This document shows positions 4,185 through 36,957 of a stretch of DNA of 49,169 nt, in pieces. The stretch's first letter is position 1, and each line of letters opens with the position of its first letter. Under the pieces are notes generated by a model. That model ran no database searches. It saw only the letters and a program-made list of their open reading frames with translations, and was not told the DNA's origin. The translations under genes and the position numbers were made by a program. The stretch is from Acidobacteriota bacterium (GTDB lineage Bacteria; Acidobacteriota; Terriglobia; 2-12-FULL-54-10): assembly GCA_009691245.1 (NCBI GenBank), contig SHUM01000024.1:1-49169 (forward strand), written 5' to 3'.

Positions 4185-5012
4185 TTAGAACACCTCCGGG
4201 AAGTAGAAGCTCATCACCGCGTTCTGGGCCATGTCGGAGACCACGATCTCCTTGTGCTTGGGGTTCAGGGCGATGCCGCGCGGCTTGATGAGCGTGCTGC
4301 TGGGTCCGCGCAGCTTCCAGCGCGGGGCTACGTTGCCGTTGTCGTTGACGTGCCAGACGCCGAGGAAACCGTCGTCGGGATGCAACTCCTCGTGCGTGCC
4401 CGCTTGCGCGGCCAGTATCCAGCCCTTGGGCTCGTAGATGGCGGTTTGCGTGATGCGGATAATCTCCGTCTTGTCGCCCTCGATGACGCGCAGCGGCGCG
4501 GCGTCGCCATTGGCGGTGCGGCTGTAAGTCAGCAGCACGCCGTACTGCTCGCCTTTCGGCCCGCGCGCCTGCGTGCCGGCCACCAGCAGATTGCGGATGG
4601 TGTCGACGGAGAGCGAGCGGACGCTCTTCAGTTGCGTTTGCTTTCCCTGAATCCTGCGCAGCGGGGGAACATCGCCATTCGCGGTGCGCGAATAGACGAG
4701 GATGGAGTCGCCGGCTTCGGGAACGTAAATTTCGTTATTGACCGCATCCACTTCCAACCGGTCCGGCCCTTCAAGTTGCGTCTTGGGCCCTTGAATGACG
4801 CGGATGGGAGCCTCCTCGCCGTTGGCACCGCCGCGGAAAACCAGGATCGCGCCGGCAAACGGCTGGCCGACCCACATCTCGTCATTCACTTCGTCATAGC
4901 GAATATCGTGCATGGTGCGCGAGAGCTTGCTGTTCTGTCCAAAGATGAGACGCGTGGGCGTCGCATTTTCTTTCGCCATCCTGGCGAAGATCGCAATCTG
5001 CGGATGCGCCAC
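4185..5012 (-). CDS. C-terminal part of NHL/beta-propeller protein, after in-frame TGA
   Basis: This 275-codon frame continues the preceding propeller gene without a shift. The upstream frame ends at TGA 5013-5015 and this one begins with the next codon (GTG at 5010-5012). The blades repeat the pattern IYV...SILVYxRTANGDxPPLRxIxG seen in the upstream part. No Shine-Dalgarno sequence lies at a useful distance from the GTG; the nearest GAGG is about 20 bases away. Independent translation is therefore doubtful. Either the TGA is read through (selenocysteine or another residue) or the gene carries a nonsense mutation. The product is probably a periplasmic or surface propeller of about 727 residues when joined. 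Its ligand is unknown. Confidence 0.75.
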   Translation of the reverse strand: MAHPQIAIFARMAKENATPTRLIFGQNSKLSRTMHDIRYDEVNDEMWVGQPFAGAILVFRGGANGEEAPIRVIQGPKTQLEGPDRLEVDAVNNEIYVPEAGDSILVYSRTANGDVPPLRRIQGKQTQLKSVRSLSVDTIRNLLVAGTQARGPKGEQYGVLLTYSRTANGDAAPLRVIEGDKTEIIRITQTAIYEPKGWILAAQAGTHEELHPDDGFLGVWHVNDNGNVAPRWKLRGPSSTLIKPRGIALNPKHKEIVVSDMAQNAVMSFYFPEVF

Positions 5013-5015
5013 TCA
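4972..5015 (-). promoter_or_regulatory. In-frame TGA followed by hairpin (candidate SECIS-like element)
   Basis: On the minus strand the TGA (5015-5013) is followed after 24 bases by TTCGCC-AGGAT-GGCGAA, a perfect 6-bp stem with a 5-base loop. The loop begins 31 bases after the TGA and has G in its second position. This fits the loose description of bacterial SECIS elements. A similar small hairpin follows the TGA in brnT of this window, where selenocysteine is implausible, so the structure alone is weak evidence. Confidence 0.3.
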
Positions 5016-6368
5016 GTTGGGCACCAGTATTTCCTCGCGCTTGGTGTCATAGCCGACCGCGCCGGGATTGCCGATGGCCATGGCCAGCTTGTCATTCGGC
5101 GCGCTGCGGATGACGCGCGCGGGCGCGGCGTTGCCGTTGGCCGTGAGGGGGTACACCGTCGCGCGGTGATTGCCCATGTTGGAAATCCAGACTTCCTTGT
5201 TCTTCGCGTCCACGAACACGCCGGTGGGATTCTTGATCTGCGTGCGCGCGCCCTTCACCTCGCGGGTGGGTGCGACGTTGCCGCTGTCGGTAATCTTGAA
5301 GACCAGCATGGAATCGGCGGCGTCGTTGGCCACGTAAATCTCGCCGCGCTCTTCGTCGACGGCCATGGCGGCGGGCCAGTTCAGTTGCGTCTTGTCGCCT
5401 TGAATCATGCGCACAGGAGCGACATCGCCCTTCGACTTCAGCGGATAAATGGTAATGGATGGCGCGGAGAAGCGGCCTGAGCCGACTACGTCTTCCGTTA
5501 CACGGCTGCCGTGGTTGGAGACGAACAGCAGATTATTTTTCTTGTCGAGGGCGATGCCGTGCGGATCGGCGAACTCGGTCTTCTCGCCTCGGATCTCGCG
5601 CAGCGCCTTGTCTTCGTCCTTGGCGTATTTGTTGTAGACCACCACGGAGTTCTGATGCTCCACCGTCATGTAGAGTTCCGAGTCCTGCTCATCGACCGCA
5701 ATGCCGTAGGTTCCGTGCGGGGTGTGCAGCTTGCGCGAGGGCTTCACATTGCCCTTGGCGTCGCGCGGGAAGATGACCATCGAGTCCTGCGTGTCGTTGT
5801 TTACCGAATAGACATCACCCGTCTTGGGGTCGATGTACAGGCCACAGTTGAACTCCATGCCGGTGTCCAGGCCCTGCACGATGCGCTTGGGCTCGGTCAT
5901 GGCGGCGGCGGGCGGGGTGTTGTCCATGCGATTGAAGACGCGATAGCCGAACAGGTTTTCATCCTGCATGTAGACTTCGTTCGATTGCAGATCAACCGCG
6001 ATCGCACTGTAAGTGGGATAAGTATCCTTAATGGTCCGCACGGGAACGCGGTCGGCATTTTCGGATTTCGCCTCGCGGTTCGCGGTCTCTGCTCTCCCTT
6101 GGGCGGCGCGAACTTGCATCGCGATCATCTTCGATGGCGCCATGCTGGCTGGCATCCACTCGCACATCTCGCCGTTTTCAGGCGAAAGCGGTACGGATGC
6201 GACCAATTGCGCCTGGCCGTTGGCGGCGCGGAGCGCATCGACGCCCGACTTGCGCAATGTTTCCGGCTGCGGATGCGTTGAAACCAATGTGGCGACCGTG
6301 CCAGCCGAAAGCAAGAAGAGTAAAAACCACGGGCCGAATGGAATCCGGCGACGAATGCGCGACATCAT
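5013..6368 (-). CDS. N-terminal part of secreted NHL/beta-propeller protein
   Basis: The frame has 451 codons. It starts with a basic stretch and one hydrophobic segment (FGPWFLLFLLSAGTVATLV), a signal peptide or membrane anchor. After about residue 110 it has repeated blades of the type GIAVDxxxxELYVxNxxxxSVVVYxxxAxGNxAPxRxIxGxxT. Such NHL-like propellers are abundant in Acidobacteriota and usually act as extracytoplasmic binding or scaffold domains; the ligand is not predictable. The frame ends at TGA 5013-5015 in the middle of a blade (EEILVPN-stop). The following codons complete the blade (VAHPQIAIF), so the stop lies inside what was or is a single gene extending to 4185. Confidence 0.85.
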   Translation of the reverse strand: MMSRIRRRIPFGPWFLLFLLSAGTVATLVSTHPQPETLRKSGVDALRAANGQAQLVASVPLSPENGEMCEWMPASMAPSKMIAMQVRAAQGRAETANREAKSENADRVPVRTIKDTYPTYSAIAVDLQSNEVYMQDENLFGYRVFNRMDNTPPAAAMTEPKRIVQGLDTGMEFNCGLYIDPKTGDVYSVNNDTQDSMVIFPRDAKGNVKPSRKLHTPHGTYGIAVDEQDSELYMTVEHQNSVVVYNKYAKDEDKALREIRGEKTEFADPHGIALDKKNNLLFVSNHGSRVTEDVVGSGRFSAPSITIYPLKSKGDVAPVRMIQGDKTQLNWPAAMAVDEERGEIYVANDAADSMLVFKITDSGNVAPTREVKGARTQIKNPTGVFVDAKNKEVWISNMGNHRATVYPLTANGNAAPARVIRSAPNDKLAMAIGNPGAVGYDTKREEILVPN

Positions 6369-8015: not shown

Positions 8016-9152
8016 TTACTTTTTCGCCGGTGCCGGCTTGCCGCCCACCTGCGTGGTGACCGAGGTACTCAGTGATTCGATCAGCGCCTTCGCGCCAGCA
8101 GCGTTGGGGCCGGTGGGAGCCGCGGCGAGGTATTTCTCCAGAGCATCCTGCGTGCCCGACGCCGGGACCATCGCGCCGGTCTTGGGATCAATGGTGGCCA
8201 TGCCGATCAGGGTTACGCCCATCTGGTAGTAGCCTTCCACGAACGGTGGGGTGGTCTGCGTGGACTTGGTGAAGGCATCGGCGGCTTCCTTCATGTTGCC
8301 CTTGTTCACCAGCACCGCGCCCAGATTGAAGAAATACTGCCCGGCGTTGACCGGATCGAGGCTGGCGGCCTGGGTCAGCTCGACCTGCGCCTCGGCGGCC
8401 ATGCCCATGTTGGCCAGCGCCAGCCCGTAATTATTGTGATAAGAAGCATCGTCGGCTTTCAGCTCGATGGCCTTCTTGTAGTTGTCGATGGACTTGGTAT
8501 AGAACTCTTTCCGCTGCGCCGCATCGCGCGTGGCTAAGGCCTTGCCGCCCCAGGCTTCGCCGAGTTGCGCGAAGATCACGTGCTGCGTGGCGTCCACCGA
8601 CGCGGCGGCTTCAAACTGCGGGATAGCCGTGTCATAGTCCTTGGCCTTCATCGCTTCCATCGCACCGCCGAACTTGGCGCTCAGTTCCTGACGCTTCTTG
8701 ATGGATTCGGCGCGGTCGGAGGCGGCCTTCTCGATGGCCGCCATCTGCGCCTCGGAGAGCTTGCCCCCCGGCTGCTCGGTAACCGAGACTCCGGCTGCCT
8801 GCGCTTCCGTGCGGGCGCGCTCCTCGCGCAGGTTGATGTTGACGGTGGCCGGCTCGTTCATGCGCGTGGTGATGTTGCCCTGCTTGAACAGAGGCTTGCC
8901 ATCCTTCAACACGGAAACAGAGAACTTGCCGAGCGGCAGGCCGGCATGGAAAAATCTGCCGTTCTTATCGGTCTTGACTTCGTAGTGGCCGCGAATATCC
9001 TCGCGGTCGATGGAGACGGCGCCGTTGGTGTAGGGCTTGCCATCTTCGCCGATCACCGTGCCGGTCATCTGGCCGAACTGAGCGGAAGCGGTGCCCGCAC
9101 CCAGAGTGAGCAGTCCAAGCAACATGCCCAGTGCCCATACTTTTTTCATCAT
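8016..9152 (-). CDS. Secreted TPR protein with carboxypeptidase-regulatory-like domain
   Basis: This 378-residue protein starts from MMKKVWALG, preceded by GGGAG at good spacing. A signal peptide (GMLLGLLTLGAGTASAQ) leads into a CarboxypepD_reg-like beta-sandwich (GTVIGEDGKPYTNGAVSID to TVNINL, about residues 28-110). A charged linker follows, then TPR repeats from about residue 155 to 330 (for example AIPQFEAAASVD, NYKKAIELKADDASYHNNYGLALANMG, AADAFTKSTQTTP). The combination is common in acidobacterial envelope proteins, where it probably supports protein-protein contacts in the periplasm. No enzymatic motif is visible. A longer start at 9197 is possible but would put 15 residues before the signal peptide. 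Confidence 0.85.
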   Translation of the reverse strand: MMKKVWALGMLLGLLTLGAGTASAQFGQMTGTVIGEDGKPYTNGAVSIDREDIRGHYEVKTDKNGRFFHAGLPLGKFSVSVLKDGKPLFKQGNITTRMNEPATVNINLREERARTEAQAAGVSVTEQPGGKLSEAQMAAIEKAASDRAESIKKRQELSAKFGGAMEAMKAKDYDTAIPQFEAAASVDATQHVIFAQLGEAWGGKALATRDAAQRKEFYTKSIDNYKKAIELKADDASYHNNYGLALANMGMAAEAQVELTQAASLDPVNAGQYFFNLGAVLVNKGNMKEAADAFTKSTQTTPPFVEGYYQMGVTLIGMATIDPKTGAMVPASGTQDALEKYLAAAPTGPNAAGAKALIESLSTSVTTQVGGKPAPAKK

Positions 9153-9275
9153 CTTGGTTTCTCCCATGCTTTCAAATTTACTACGCGCGACGCGCATGCA
9201 CCTTCAATACAATAGACGCAATTTTTGGATGAAAGGTTTCCTTGCCATCCGGGGTTGGCGTTTGGACTCAGTTAC

Positions 9276-31301: not shown

Positions 31302-32252
31302 TCAGCCCGCGGCCCTCTCCGTTCGGATACTGGAGGACCTTGCCGGACGATTGTTTTGTGGATTTCCCGGTGCCGTGCTCTTTCCCTTCACGGCTTTCAC
31401 CAGCCCCAGTCCGGTCATCACCAGCTCAACAATTTTCTCAGGTGGATGCCGCCACGTTTCCATCACCAATTCCGCCTGCGAGTACAGGGGCTCGCGAATT
31501 TTCAGCATGACCTTTAGTTCATCCTTCGCTGCCGGATTGTTGCGCATGGGCCGGATGTCGCCCTGCGCAACCACGCGGTTCCAGTGATCCTGCGTGCGCG
31601 CCTTCAGCCATACTGTGTGGCACTGCCGCCGCACCATGGCCCAGGTCTCCCGGTCCGTTACCAGCGAGCCTCCGGTGGCGATCACGGCGGGAGCGGCGCT
31701 GGCCAGGAATTTTTCCATGACATCGTGCTGGAGTTGGCCGTAGTAGCCCTCGCCATGCAGCGTGAACATCTGCACCAGATTCAGGCCGGACTGCCGCTCC
31801 AGCAGCGCGTCGAATTCCACGAAGCGTATTCCCAGCCGGCGCGCCAGCAAACGGCCCACCGTGGATTTGCCTGCGCCGCGCACGCCGACCAGCGCGATGG
31901 AGCGGGGAATGGGTTTGTGCAGCCGCTCGGAGAGCCACTTGTATAGCTCATCGAGACTGTCGCCGCCGCAGCCCTCTACTAATTCCAAAACGCGGCCACG
32001 CAGCGAGACATCTTTCTTGTTGGCGGGGATCAAACTTTGCAGCGGTAACTCCAGAGCGCTGGCCACGCGCAGCAGACGGGCCACGGAGATGTTGCCGCGA
32101 CCGGCTTCCAGCTCGGACAGGAATCGCGGTGACAACCCGGCCTGACCGGCCAAATCGTGAATGCTGCGCCCGCCTTCGTTGCGCAGAGTGCGCACGCGTT
32201 GGCCGAGGTCCTTCAGGAATCCATCGGCTTCGAATTTATGGTCAGTCGCCAT
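31302..32252 (-). CDS. boxR: BoxR/BzdR-type regulator: HTH plus shikimate-kinase-like domain
   Basis: The 316-residue protein joins an XRE helix-turn-helix (residues about 14-70, DLAGQAGLSPRFLSELEAGRGNISVARLLRVA) to a shikimate-kinase-like domain. The latter has a Walker A P-loop (GVRGAGKST, 123-131), FVEFDALLERQSGL and the VIATGGSLV segment. This fusion is known from BzdR and BoxR, which repress benzoate genes and respond to benzoyl-CoA bound by the kinase-like domain. It is divergent from the BoxB-like gene, with 247 bases between the starts holding two TGCATTA boxes. A true shikimate kinase is excluded by the HTH and the lack of aro neighbours. Confidence 0.9.
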   Translation of the reverse strand: MATDHKFEADGFLKDLGQRVRTLRNEGGRSIHDLAGQAGLSPRFLSELEAGRGNISVARLLRVASALELPLQSLIPANKKDVSLRGRVLELVEGCGGDSLDELYKWLSERLHKPIPRSIALVGVRGAGKSTVGRLLARRLGIRFVEFDALLERQSGLNLVQMFTLHGEGYYGQLQHDVMEKFLASAAPAVIATGGSLVTDRETWAMVRRQCHTVWLKARTQDHWNRVVAQGDIRPMRNNPAAKDELKVMLKIREPLYSQAELVMETWRHPPEKIVELVMTGLGLVKAVKGKSTAPGNPQNNRPARSSSIRTERAAG

Positions 32253-32308
32253 GCCTGAACCTCGCTGCCCGCCCGGCCAGTCCCCGATTTTCTGACGGGC
32301 ACTTGATA

Positions 32309-32353
32309 TGCATTATATTTCACTTGTCAAGAAAGTCAAGCTGCATTAAATTT
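32309..32353 (+). promoter_or_regulatory. Candidate BoxR operator: two direct TGCATTA(T/A)ATTT boxes
   Basis: Boxes at 32309-32320 (tgcattatattt) and 32342-32353 (tgcattaaattt) match at 11 of 12 bases and start 33 bases apart, about three helical turns. BzdR/BoxR regulators are known to bind TGCA-centred sites. The boxes lie between the divergent regulator and oxygenase genes. Confidence 0.55.
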
Positions 32354-32499
32354 CTAAGTGGATGGTGTCTTTGGCTTCCGCTCCGGTTACTGGCAAGGGA
32401 GAGAGGAAGCGAGATGCGCCGTAAAAAGTTTACAGTTTGTCGCAACGAAATTCATCTATCCGGGAGCCTGTCGGGCCGCCCGCTAAAGGAGCCAGAACG

Positions 32500-33639
32500 A
32501 TGCTAGTCAAGAAAAGCAGGGTGCAGACCTTTGATGATTGGATCGATTATTTCCATCAATGGCGCAACGACATCGGCTATCCCACCGACCTGATCGGCGC
32601 GGACTATACCTTTGAGACCAAGCTGAGCGAGCTGGAGAGCGACGAAGTTGAGTTCGGCCACTTTGCCGGACAGCGCAAGTGGGAGAAGGTCTCCGACATC
32701 CCGGATCAGCGCATCAAGGACGCGCTGCTGCACCTGATCGAATTCCAGGGCGACACCGAGTTCGCCTCGGTCGAGCAGCAGAAGGGTCTGCTCGATCGGG
32801 CTCCGACCAAGTACGATCTGGACTCGATGCTGCGAGTGAACCGCGAGGAGATGCGCCACGGCTGGCAGATGGGCTATCTGCTGGTAACGCACTTCGGCGA
32901 CACCGGACGGCAGCGCTCCGAGCGCCTGCTCACGCGCCGCGCCTCCGAGCGCACTCGTCTGCTCGGCTCCTTCAACGAGCCGGTCAACAACTGGCTGGAC
33001 TTCTTCACCTATACCGACTTCATCGATCGCGACGGCAAGTACCAGTTGAACATGCTGAGCCGCAGCGCGTTCGCGCCGCTGGCGCAGAGCATGCGTCCGA
33101 TGCTGCAGGAAGAGGCGTTCCATCTGCTCACCGGCAACACCGGCCTGATGCGCATTGTGAAAGCGGGAGTGATTCCGACCGCGATTATTCAGAAATATTT
33201 CAATAAGTGGATCTCCACGGCCTACGATCTGTTCGGCCAGGATGAATCCTCGACGGCCTACTGGGCATACCTGTGGGGAGTGAAGGGGCGCTACGACGAG
33301 CACCTCTTCGACGGCCCGCCGGACATGAACAAGATCAACGACGTGTCGCGCAACCAGTACTACAAGGAAGTCGCGGCCATCGTGGATTCGCTCAACAGGA
33401 ACATCAAGCCGGATCAGCAGAAGTTGGTGATGCCGGACATTAAGTTCAACCGCGCCGTGGGCATGTACGCCGGACAGCCTTACAGCGTTACCGGCGAACT
33501 GCTCTCACCCGAGGAATACGCGAAGCATAAGGACGACGTGGTCCCCAGCGAGGCGGACGTGCAGTACGTCATCAATCTCGAAAAGGAGAAAACTCCGTGG
33601 ATCGTGGACCCGAATCAGGCAGCAACGCCGGCGCGGTAA
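32500..33639 (+). CDS. BoxB-like di-iron aryl-CoA epoxidase
   Basis: This 379-residue ferritin-like protein is close in pattern to BoxB, which epoxidises benzoyl-CoA. Shared segments are IEFQGDTEFASVEQQ, EEMRHGWQMGYLL, FIDRDGKYQLNML, EEAFHLLTGNTG, IIQKYFNKW and DLFGQDESS. Likely iron ligands are E87, E117, H120, E205 and H208 (two ExxH pairs). It is about 95 residues shorter than classical BoxB, with a shorter N-terminus and a shorter segment before the IIQKY helix. The start at 32500 is preceded by AAAGGAG. The next gene overlaps it by 43 bases. PaaA (phenylacetyl-CoA epoxidase) is a more distant alternative. Confidence 0.82.
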   Translation: MLVKKSRVQTFDDWIDYFHQWRNDIGYPTDLIGADYTFETKLSELESDEVEFGHFAGQRKWEKVSDIPDQRIKDALLHLIEFQGDTEFASVEQQKGLLDRAPTKYDLDSMLRVNREEMRHGWQMGYLLVTHFGDTGRQRSERLLTRRASERTRLLGSFNEPVNNWLDFFTYTDFIDRDGKYQLNMLSRSAFAPLAQSMRPMLQEEAFHLLTGNTGLMRIVKAGVIPTAIIQKYFNKWISTAYDLFGQDESSTAYWAYLWGVKGRYDEHLFDGPPDMNKINDVSRNQYYKEVAAIVDSLNRNIKPDQQKLVMPDIKFNRAVGMYAGQPYSVTGELLSPEEYAKHKDDVVPSEADVQYVINLEKEKTPWIVDPNQAATPAR

Positions 33640-34031
33640 CCGGGCTGGCGGAAAATCCCGCGGAAGCCAAGAAGCTGGTCTTTGTCTGCATGAATGTGGA
33701 TTGCCGTGTGCGAGGCGCCTCCGAAGTGATGGAGCGCCTCAGCACTCGAGTCCAGAACGAATGCAGTCAGTCGACTGGCGGAGAGGGCGCGGACAATCCC
33801 TGCGGAAATACCGAAGTGCGGCCGTACATGTGCTTCGGCGGCTGCCACGACGGTCCCAACGTGATCGTCTATCCGGATCGCGTCTGGTACGCCAACGTGA
33901 AGCCGGAGGACGCCGACACGATTGTGGATCAGCATTTGAAGAAGGGCGAGATCGTAAAGCCGTTGACTGGGAAGATCGAAAAGGGTCTCGAAGATATGAT
34001 CTTCAATCTTCTGGATTTCGGCATCTACTAG
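33597..34031 (+). CDS. Thioredoxin-fold [2Fe-2S] ferredoxin
   Basis: The protein has 144 residues, starting at the GTG at 33597 behind AAAAGGAG, inside the end of the BoxB-like gene. The domain begins at KLVFVCMNVDCRVRGASEV and continues through ECSQSTGG...NPCGNTEVRPYMCFGGCHDGPNVIVYPDRVWYANV. These cysteines and the fold order match the shethna-type/NuoE-like [2Fe-2S] ferredoxins. Because it is translationally coupled to the oxygenase, it probably delivers electrons to the di-iron site in place of BoxA. The extra C-terminal tail (KGLEDMIFNLLDFGIY) is unusual. Confidence 0.83.
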   Translation: MDRGPESGSNAGAVTGLAENPAEAKKLVFVCMNVDCRVRGASEVMERLSTRVQNECSQSTGGEGADNPCGNTEVRPYMCFGGCHDGPNVIVYPDRVWYANVKPEDADTIVDQHLKKGEIVKPLTGKIEKGLEDMIFNLLDFGIY

Positions 34032-34104
34032 CGCGACTGCTGAATCCGCAAGGAGTTTTGAAAACAGTCCAGATAATTGGACCATCACGCAACACCAATC
34101 AAGG

Positions 34105-34144
34105 GCCTGCGGGAAGTACTCTCACCCGCAGGCTCTTCGCTTTT
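34105..34144 (+). terminator. Rho-independent terminator after the ferredoxin gene
   Basis: A perfect 9-bp stem, gcctgcggg / cccgcaggc, with an 11-base loop (34105-34133), is followed by tcttcgctttt. It limits the oxygenase transcript to two genes. Confidence 0.8.
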
Positions 34145-35320: not shown

Positions 35321-36712
35321 CTAATGCACACTGAAGTCGATGTCGCCGTCGGGGCCTGGCATCGGCATTGGTGGAGGCGGTGGCGGCGGGGCCGTGAGCG
35401 CGGGCTTGGCCGCATGATGCACGTCGTGGCCTTTCTTGGTCTGCGGCGGCGCGACGCCATAGGCGCGTGCCAGCACCTCGATGGGATGGATGGGCTTCTT
35501 GCCGGTGGCCTGCTCCACCTGAATCGCGGAGAGAGGGCAGTCCGTGGTGGTGCAGCAATCCTCCGTCTTCATGAACTTGAATAGCGGCTTGCCCACCGTC
35601 ATGGACATCTCGAAGTATTCTTTCTTAACGCTCCAGCTTCCATCGTGGCCCGAGCAGGCCTGCATGCGCTTGACCTCGGCGCCGGGGATGATGGCCATCA
35701 ACTCCTGACCTTTGAATCCCATGTTCTGCGCCTTCAGATGGCAGGGCTGGTGGTAGCGAATCTTCCCGGCTTGCTTCAGACCCTCCTCGGTGAACTCGGC
35801 AGCGAGCTTGCCCTCGGCGTGCAGACCGACAAGATACTCGGATAAGTCCATGGTGTTGGCGGCCACGAGTCGCGAGTCTTCGGTGGGAACCAGGTTGGGA
35901 TAATCGAGCTTCATTGTGTAGCTGCAACTGGCGCTGGGTACGACAATTTTGTAGCCCTTCTTTACCAGCGGAGCGAGCCGGGCGACGTTGGCCTCCGCTT
36001 TCGCCACGGCCTGCTCAGTCATGCCGCTATCGAGGAAGGGAAGTCCGCAGCACTCTTGAGCCGGCACGGCGCACTCGATGCCGTTATTTTCCATCACGGC
36101 CACGGCGGCCCTGCCGATCTGCGGCTCGTTATAGTTAATCAGGCAGGTGTAGAACAGCGCGGCCTTCGGAGCGTCAGGAGCAGTCGGCGGCGCATTGTGT
36201 TTGCCCGACCAGGTCTCGAATGTCTGCGCGTGGAAGGTGGGCAGGATGCGGTCCTTGTGGATGCCGAAATGCTTCTCCATCAACTCGCGCAGCTTGGGGT
36301 TCTGATTCACCCAGTTGACGACGGGCGCGGCCAGGCTGGAGAGCTTTCCCACCAGATCAATATCGCCCAACATGCGATCCCGCATGGTGAAGCCCGTTTC
36401 TTTCTTGTCCACGATATGCGCGCGCATGATCATGCGCGGATAGTCGATATCCCACTCGTGATTCGGGACGTAAGGGCAAACGACGTAGCAAAGCTTGCAC
36501 TGGTAGCACTCGTCCACCACCTGCTTGATCTGCGGCTCGCTCAGCGTGTAAACGTCGCCGGCGTTCTCGTCGGTGTACTGGAACAGATGCACAAAAGATG
36601 GGCAGTAGGTGTCGCAGACGCGGCAGCCGTGGCAGACGTCGAAGACGCGCAGCAGTTCTTTGCGCGTTACCTCCGGGTCCCAGAATTCCTTGGATCGAAT
36701 GTCGAAGTTCAT
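35321..36712 (-). CDS. Fe-S oxidoreductase, GlpC/HdrD-like
   Basis: This 463-residue protein has two [4Fe-4S] motifs near the N-terminus (CHGCRVCDTYC, residues about 27-37, and CYQCKLCYVVC about 69-79). Two cysteine-rich CCG-type domains follow (FYTCLINYN with QECCGLPFLDSG, and RYHQPCHLKAQNMG with ACSGHDGSW). It ends with a Pro-rich tail of about 35 residues. This layout occurs in GlpC, heterodisulfide-reductase-like subunits and proteins linked to rubrerythrin. It likely passes electrons between a flavin partner and quinones or thiols, but no partner gene is adjacent. Confidence 0.87.
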   Translation of the reverse strand: MNFDIRSKEFWDPEVTRKELLRVFDVCHGCRVCDTYCPSFVHLFQYTDENAGDVYTLSEPQIKQVVDECYQCKLCYVVCPYVPNHEWDIDYPRMIMRAHIVDKKETGFTMRDRMLGDIDLVGKLSSLAAPVVNWVNQNPKLRELMEKHFGIHKDRILPTFHAQTFETWSGKHNAPPTAPDAPKAALFYTCLINYNEPQIGRAAVAVMENNGIECAVPAQECCGLPFLDSGMTEQAVAKAEANVARLAPLVKKGYKIVVPSASCSYTMKLDYPNLVPTEDSRLVAANTMDLSEYLVGLHAEGKLAAEFTEEGLKQAGKIRYHQPCHLKAQNMGFKGQELMAIIPGAEVKRMQACSGHDGSWSVKKEYFEMSMTVGKPLFKFMKTEDCCTTTDCPLSAIQVEQATGKKPIHPIEVLARAYGVAPPQTKKGHDVHHAAKPALTAPPPPPPPMPMPGPDGDIDFSVH

Positions 36713-36957
36713 GTGCGTTGAACCCTGTTCCGCGCACCTCGCTCAGGCGGGCACGCACGGTGATGGCATTGTCAGTGGAAACAACTCCAAAGCTTGTCAT
36801 CTTACCGTGTTCTGCAATCGCAGAGCAATTGTTCCCTGTAGAAAATATATTGCAACACCCCGCCATGTATGAGTAGAATCTTCAAATTGCAGTTGCCGGA
36901 CGTCTGTCCGTGGTCTTGGTGCAAAATCGCGCGCGAATGGAAGCAGGGTAGTAATTC

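Follow-up and report, generated by a model that had tools for sequence, protein, structure and literature searches.

Aerobic benzoyl-coenzyme A (CoA) metabolism is usually recognised through the genes boxA, boxB and boxC. The reductase BoxA carries two [4Fe-4S] clusters and uses NADPH and flavin adenine dinucleotide (PMC4498308), and the motif of the regulator BoxR in Betaproteobacteria is ATGCACTATAGTGCAT (TGCA-N6-TGCA), of which multiple sites usually lie 3–5 turns apart (PMC6449761). The locus considered here lies in the window, that is, the whole stretch of 49,169 nucleotides analysed from a soil bacterium of the Acidobacteriota. In this locus, a gene for a BoxR-type regulator (boxR) diverges from a unit encoding a short BoxB-like di-iron oxygenase and a ferredoxin. 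We consider it reasonably probable that the locus encodes the opening step of an aerobic route of benzoyl-CoA epoxidation under BoxR control, in which a divergent, shorter BoxB would be served by an NADH–NuoF–ferredoxin donor. The gene content, the distinct clade, the conservation of active site and fold, the operators, the absence of BoxA, BoxC and canonical BoxB, and the linkage of ferredoxin with NuoF and their shared occurrence were established by computation.

On the BoxB profile TIGR03225, the window oxygenase reached 241 bits against a cut-off of 499 bits. Other members of the short clade scored 215–238 bits, and canonical BoxB proteins of the same phylum scored 745–753 bits. The PaaA profile gave 41 bits (cut-off 280), and treating the oxygenase as a PaaA variant was rejected on the fold, the residues and this score. 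A genome-collection scan yielded at least 510 relatives, and the best 80, which were retrieved, spanned Acidobacteriota, Binatota, deltaproteobacteria, Gemmatimonadota, Rokubacteria and others. In the trees, canonical BoxB and the short clade were split by a branch with 100/100 support, and the window oxygenase fell in clade A (100/100). As the order among clades A, B and C was only weakly supported, no order of ferredoxin gain and loss is claimed. Because both defining tests failed, namely the profile cut-off and the tree grouping, the window oxygenase stands outside canonical BoxB, in a separate and widespread clade.

The window's own genome (G000), rated 100% complete, held one match to the oxygenase besides two PaaA/PaaC-like proteins; the PaaA-like proteins on contigs C15 and C47 were rejected as second BoxBs. 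Canonical BoxB was not found in this genome, the best match to BoxA was 19.6 bits (cut-off 459), and the best match to the two-domain BoxC dihydrolase was 57 bits (cut-off 712), with single-domain crotonases only. A plasmid protein search gave, among the matches listed, only canonical BoxB and PaaA-type matches. An open-access literature search, with subscription papers outside its scope, found no description of the lineage or of a di-iron oxygenase fed by NuoF and ferredoxin.

The predicted structure of the oxygenase (predicted local distance difference test score 92.7) had as its top PDB match BoxB with bound benzoyl-CoA (3PM5), with a template modelling (TM) score of 0.88 compared with about 0.5 for PaaA. 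The BoxB active-site residues used for comparison were taken from PMC5489048, and the Fe ligands in BoxB numbering are E120, E150, H153, D211, E240 and H243. These six ligands and the benzoyl-contacting residues Gln116, Thr119, Ser123 and Phe193 were identical in 76/76 short and 9/9 canonical proteins, and Phe203 of BoxB was retained in 73 of the 76 short-clade members. Thr210, which adjoins the Fe ligand Asp211, was replaced by Ile or Val in all 76, Phe206 by Tyr in 70, and Pro121, beside the pocket, by Phe in the short clade. The original prediction that the oxygenase is about 95 residues shorter than BoxB was exact when measured against an acidobacterial BoxB, with the loss spread over several segments, mainly the N-terminus, a 16-residue loop, a 24-residue loop and the C-terminus. 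Its further suggestion that the substrate pocket probably differs was not borne out, and the pocket appears not clearly different from that of BoxB.

In the case of the electron donor, the window ferredoxin has cysteines at positions 31, 36, 79 and 83 and a conserved C-terminal helical tail ending in LLDFGIY. When 20 oxygenase-linked ferredoxins were aligned, the four cysteines were kept and the tail took the form I..LLD.G, with Phe or Tyr as the last residue in nearly all. Of the 16 clade B loci, 15 had the ferredoxin gene directly 3′ of the oxygenase gene, with a gap of 26–184 bp, and the contig of the sixteenth ended before that point. Next after the ferredoxin came a NuoF-like protein with Nuo51 flavin mononucleotide (FMN)-binding and 4Fe-4S domains, in 14/14 loci reaching that far. 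The same order was found in L162, and in L091 a NuoF–ferredoxin–crotonase unit was divergent from the oxygenase gene; in the L088 genome, ferredoxin and NuoF formed their own two-gene unit. The NuoF on contig C85 of the window's genome grouped with the oxygenase-associated NuoFs (support 91) in a tree for which only correctly extracted rows were used, several wrong-frame rows with long branches being disregarded. A second NuoF of this genome, on C2, was rejected as the partner, as it grouped with other NuoF types. The tailed ferredoxin and the C85-type NuoF were both present in 7 of 10 clade A genomes, including G000, and both absent in 3, a perfect co-occurrence with a chance of 1 in 120 if independent, with the caveat that these are metagenome-assembled genomes (MAGs). 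Because of this linkage, the shared tail and the co-occurrence, a path of electrons from NADH through NuoF and the ferredoxin to the oxygenase is suggested. In the sister genome (L207:313-1086 and 4439-5197), a second ferredoxin carrying this C-terminal tail was also seen, about 3 kb away from a further protein of the PaaA/PaaC family.

The regulator, with helix-turn-helix (HTH) and shikimate-kinase domains, scored 269 bits on the BoxR/BzdR test NCBIfam PRK08154 (cut-off 204). Its kin adjoin the short boxB in L085 and L086 and lie close by in L088, L090 and L092. Between the divergent genes of the window, two BoxR-operator-like sites are spaced 33 bp apart, or about 3 turns, and these two motif matches compare with 0.07 expected in the window. 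In both sites, the left half is kept and the right half is degenerate (TTCA). The sites overlap both promoter-like sequences and are therefore placed as expected of a repressor. The same site form occurred upstream of the oxygenase in L085, L086, L088 and L092 and in the boxR/boxC divergons of the canonical loci L062 and L165. In L088, L090 and L092, TGCACTATACTGCA was found between boxR and an adjoining cluster of two aldehyde dehydrogenase genes and a crotonase gene (aldh-aldh-ech). Since operator-like sites are shared between these two positions, the oxygenase, boxR and the downstream enzymes form one probable regulon in those relatives. Also between boxR and aldh in L088 (4443-4607), a hairpin was flanked by two near-identical 25-nt palindromes, CACCCCTCCTAAGTTAGGAGGGGTG, which are probably a mobile repeat.

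For the rest of the pathway, the window's genome encodes two benzoate-CoA ligases above the cut-off (606 and 547 bits vs 375). Contig C33 carries an ech-aldh-aldh cluster, as in L088, L092 and L162, and its crotonase is 59% identical to the crotonase beside the oxygenase in L037. The single-domain crotonase and the two aldehyde dehydrogenases probably replace BoxC and BoxD. The neighbours of clade C oxygenases include crotonases, an aldehyde dehydrogenase, a thiolase, a 3-hydroxyacyl-CoA dehydrogenase and 4-hydroxybenzoyl-CoA reductase-like genes, and the one beta subunit of the last type that was scanned scored 335 bits, below the cut-off of 404. The ligases, the crotonase cluster and these neighbours would fit benzoyl-CoA or a close aryl-CoA as the substrate, without proving it. 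Clade C operons such as L128:6855-18366 and L048:3313-15130 combine TetR, crotonases, aldehyde dehydrogenase, short boxB, 4-hydroxybenzoyl-CoA reductase-like genes and an amidohydrolase, with a rhodanese in L048 as well, and no electron donor was evident among their genes. In many clade B loci (L100-L102, L104, L106-L108, L110, L113, L114), a gene of about 800 aa, judged PtsP-like (GAF and PTS enzyme I) from its sequence alone, lies directly upstream of boxB. A putative UbiX-like gene adjoins the stronger benzoate-CoA ligase of the window's genome (L219:7899-10592, on C6).

From these data, the activity, substrate, product, electron path, inducer and ring opening were inferred as follows. A benzoate-CoA ligase would make benzoyl-CoA, and benzoyl-CoA or a close aryl-CoA would free BoxR from the two TGCA-type operators, whereupon the BoxB-like oxygenase would be produced together with its coupled ferredoxin. 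Electrons from NADH would pass through the NuoF-like FMN/4Fe-4S diaphorase and the NuoE-like [2Fe-2S] ferredoxin to the di-iron centre, which would epoxidise the aromatic ring. The single-domain crotonase and the aldehyde dehydrogenase(s) would fill the roles of BoxC and BoxD, and a GlpC-like Fe-S protein may act as a second component in clade A.

Several observations weigh against this scheme. The NuoF gene and the C33 cluster both lie on contigs separate from that of the oxygenase, and the best matches of the crotonase are ordinary enoyl-CoA hydratases, not ring-opening enzymes. No BoxR-like site was found beside the NuoF gene, both ligase genes or the C33 cluster of the window's genome, and some of the operator-like sites found had themselves contributed to the weight matrix used to find them. 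Because Thr210 is replaced by Ile or Val and Phe206 is mostly Tyr, the regioselectivity or substrate could differ from that of BoxB. Moreover, the NuoF–ferredoxin donor is not universal in the lineage, because the pair is missing from three clade A genomes (G301, G302 and G304, MAGs that are perhaps incomplete) and neither gene lies near most clade C loci.

These three genomes bear on an alternative that is unlikely but the strongest of those considered, in which the physiological donor of clade A is the GlpC-like Fe-S protein, which may be linked to a quinol or a flavoprotein, and the ferredoxin is an accessory or alternative donor. The GlpC-like gene adjoins the oxygenase gene, in convergent orientation, in all 13 clade A loci whose contigs reach far enough (the window, L086-L090 and L092-L098); the contigs of L085 and L091 end too early to show it. 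In L088, L090 and L092 it also lies just 3′ of boxR on the same strand, and in the window it is preceded by a weak BoxR-like site, the third-best motif score there (13.1 vs 11.8 for the next). In the window's genome, another GlpC-like protein (L056, 5851-7122) is encoded near a PaaA-like gene (8497-9219), which also counts in favour of this alternative. However, clade B and C oxygenases have no adjoining GlpC-like gene, except for one distant 28% match in L150, despite the shared active site, and the window ferredoxin is apparently coupled in translation to the oxygenase. In the preferred reading with NuoF and ferredoxin as the donor, the GlpC-like protein is probably a second component of electron transfer in clade A; it could also serve as an alternative donor, above all where the pair is missing, as in the three genomes.

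A slightly less likely alternative concerns the substrate, which might be another CoA ester, such as a hydroxylated or alkylated benzoyl-CoA, a heteroaryl-CoA or an alicyclic CoA, sensed here by BoxR. MbdR of Azoarcus sp. CIB responds to 3-methylbenzoyl-CoA (PMC4424350), so regulators of this aryl-CoA type can be adapted to esters with substituents. The replacements of Thr210, Phe206 and Pro121 and the varying oxygenase neighbourhoods between clades agree with this alternative, but the benzoyl-contacting residues are unchanged, the operator-like sites match canonical BoxR sites, the window's genome encodes two benzoate-CoA ligases and no further oxygenase for benzoyl-CoA, and the hcr-like genes of clade C point to a benzoyl-CoA intermediate. 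That an ordinary divergent BoxB is served by any housekeeping reductase, with incidental ferredoxin linkage, is very improbable: no donor is linked to the oxygenase in most clade C loci, and the canonical system needs only a little BoxA (PMC4498308), but the ferredoxin linkage extends across phyla, the conserved tail was not seen in the unlinked homologue L042, and the presence and absence of ferredoxin and NuoF are matched.

When the sequence was re-read, the coordinates of the three genes agreed with those given before, and the predicted layout of a divergent regulator and a two-gene unit with a 43-base overlap, closed by a strong hairpin, was confirmed (Table 1). The T-run of the hairpin is interrupted, and a simple terminator scan did not detect it. 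Because of the 43-nt overlap and the position of the ferredoxin Shine-Dalgarno sequence within the oxygenase gene, coupled translation is plausible. The overlapping arrangement also occurs in the sister loci L085 (96%) and L086 (77%), and L085, from a Candidatus Sulfopaludibacter MAG, agrees with the window in gene order and in the genes upstream.

Table 1. Features of the oxygenase locus and its surroundings in the window
Feature	Position	Strand	Details and basis
BoxR/BzdR-type repressor	31302..32252	-	316 aa; HTH and shikimate-kinase-like domain; PRK08154 profile; Pfam HTH_3 and SKI
BoxR-operator-like site 1, TGCATTATATTTCA	32309..32322	+	overlaps promoter-like site of regulator
Promoter-like TTGACT-16-TATAAT, regulator	32339-32312	-	
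BoxR-operator-like site 2, TGCATTAAATTTC	32342..32354	+	overlaps + strand promoter-like site 32324-32352
Oxygenase Shine-Dalgarno AAGGAG	32486..32491	+	sequence; 8 nt before ATG 32500; kept in L085 and L086
Short BoxB-like di-iron oxygenase	32500..33639	+	379 aa; TIGR03225 profile, structure model, ligand mapping
Fe ligands of oxygenase	E87, E117, H120, D176, E205, H208		ligand mapping onto BoxB
Ferredoxin Shine-Dalgarno AAGGAG	33583..33588	+	inside oxygenase gene, 8 nt before GTG 33597
Thioredoxin-like [2Fe-2S] ferredoxin (NuoE-like)	33597..34031	+	PF01257; nearest PDB relative 1f37; alignment; model
Terminator-like hairpin	34101..34137	+	37 nt, 3′ of ferredoxin; -28.6 kcal/mol, z -4.7
GlpC-like Fe-S protein	35321..36712	-	two 4Fe-4S motifs and CCG domain; PRK11168, 298 bits (cut-off 278)
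Weak BoxR-like site, TGCAATATATTTTC	36841..36854	-	about 130 bp upstream of GlpC-like gene; tentative

The original prediction of a reduced BoxR/BoxB-like/ferredoxin aryl-CoA oxygenase system holds for the distinct clade and the absence of BoxA and BoxC, and needed correction for the partners, the pocket and the conservation. It had named two outcomes that would count against it, a grouping inside canonical BoxB with boxA and boxC elsewhere in the genome, and a three-gene arrangement not conserved in relatives. The first was not found, and neither was fully observed, because the clade is distinct, BoxA and BoxC are absent and the ferredoxin linkage crosses phyla. The exact set with boxR occurs only in the nearest kin, L085 and L086, while oxygenase–ferredoxin linkage extends much further. 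Replacement of BoxA by the ferredoxin agrees with the missing BoxA and with this linkage, but the ferredoxin would not act alone, as relatives add the NuoF-like diaphorase and clade A the GlpC-like protein. The description as compact is misleading because the rest of the pathway lies elsewhere in the genome. The two operator-like sites, the GlpC-like neighbour, the off-contig NuoF and the crotonase and aldehyde dehydrogenase genes are additions to that prediction.

More broadly, and more tentatively, the lineage may represent a second aerobic pathway for benzoyl-CoA, assembled independently and widespread among uncultivated phyla of soil and sediment. In this pathway, NADH, NuoF and ferredoxin (with the GlpC-like protein in one clade) would drive a BoxB-like epoxidase, and a single-domain crotonase and aldehyde dehydrogenases would replace BoxC and BoxD. 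The lineage would be overlooked or annotated merely as "phenylacetic acid catabolic protein", and counts of aromatic degradation in Acidobacteriota, Binatota, Gemmatimonadota and Rokubacteria may therefore be too low. If true, a complex-I-like NADH diaphorase and a ferredoxin feeding a di-iron oxygenase would form an unusual electron chain.

Compared with known systems, the lineage has the same probable chemistry and regulator as the box system, differs in oxygenase lineage and probably differs in donor and downstream enzymes. With BoxB, the benzoyl-CoA 2,3-epoxidase of Azoarcus evansii (PDB 3PM5, 3PER; TIGR03225), the window oxygenase shares the fold (TM 0.88), the six Fe ligands and Gln116, Thr119, Ser123 and Phe193, along with BoxR-type control and a probable aryl-CoA substrate; however, it is 38–39% identical to canonical BoxB in the alignment, 95 residues shorter, scores half the profile cut-off, has Ile or Val at Thr210 and comes from a genome without BoxA and BoxC. 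PaaA of the phenylacetyl-CoA epoxidase PaaABCE belongs to the same di-iron CoA-ester epoxidase superfamily (PF05138), but PaaA has no QGDTExxS segment, depends on PaaB/PaaC and the reductase PaaE, and gave TM scores of 0.50–0.52. As with BoxA, the role to be filled is the supply of electrons to the oxygenase, and in place of BoxA the window lineage has a NuoE-like [2Fe-2S] ferredoxin and a NuoF-like FMN protein. These two resemble NuoE and NuoF of complex I and NADH-linked hydrogenases, and the Aquifex ferredoxin 1f37, in their domain types and in the likely flow from NADH through FMN to the Fe-S clusters. Unlike those proteins, they form a stand-alone pair beside an oxygenase, the ferredoxin bears the C-terminal tail, and NuoF scores 336–365 bits against the complex I cut-off of 559.

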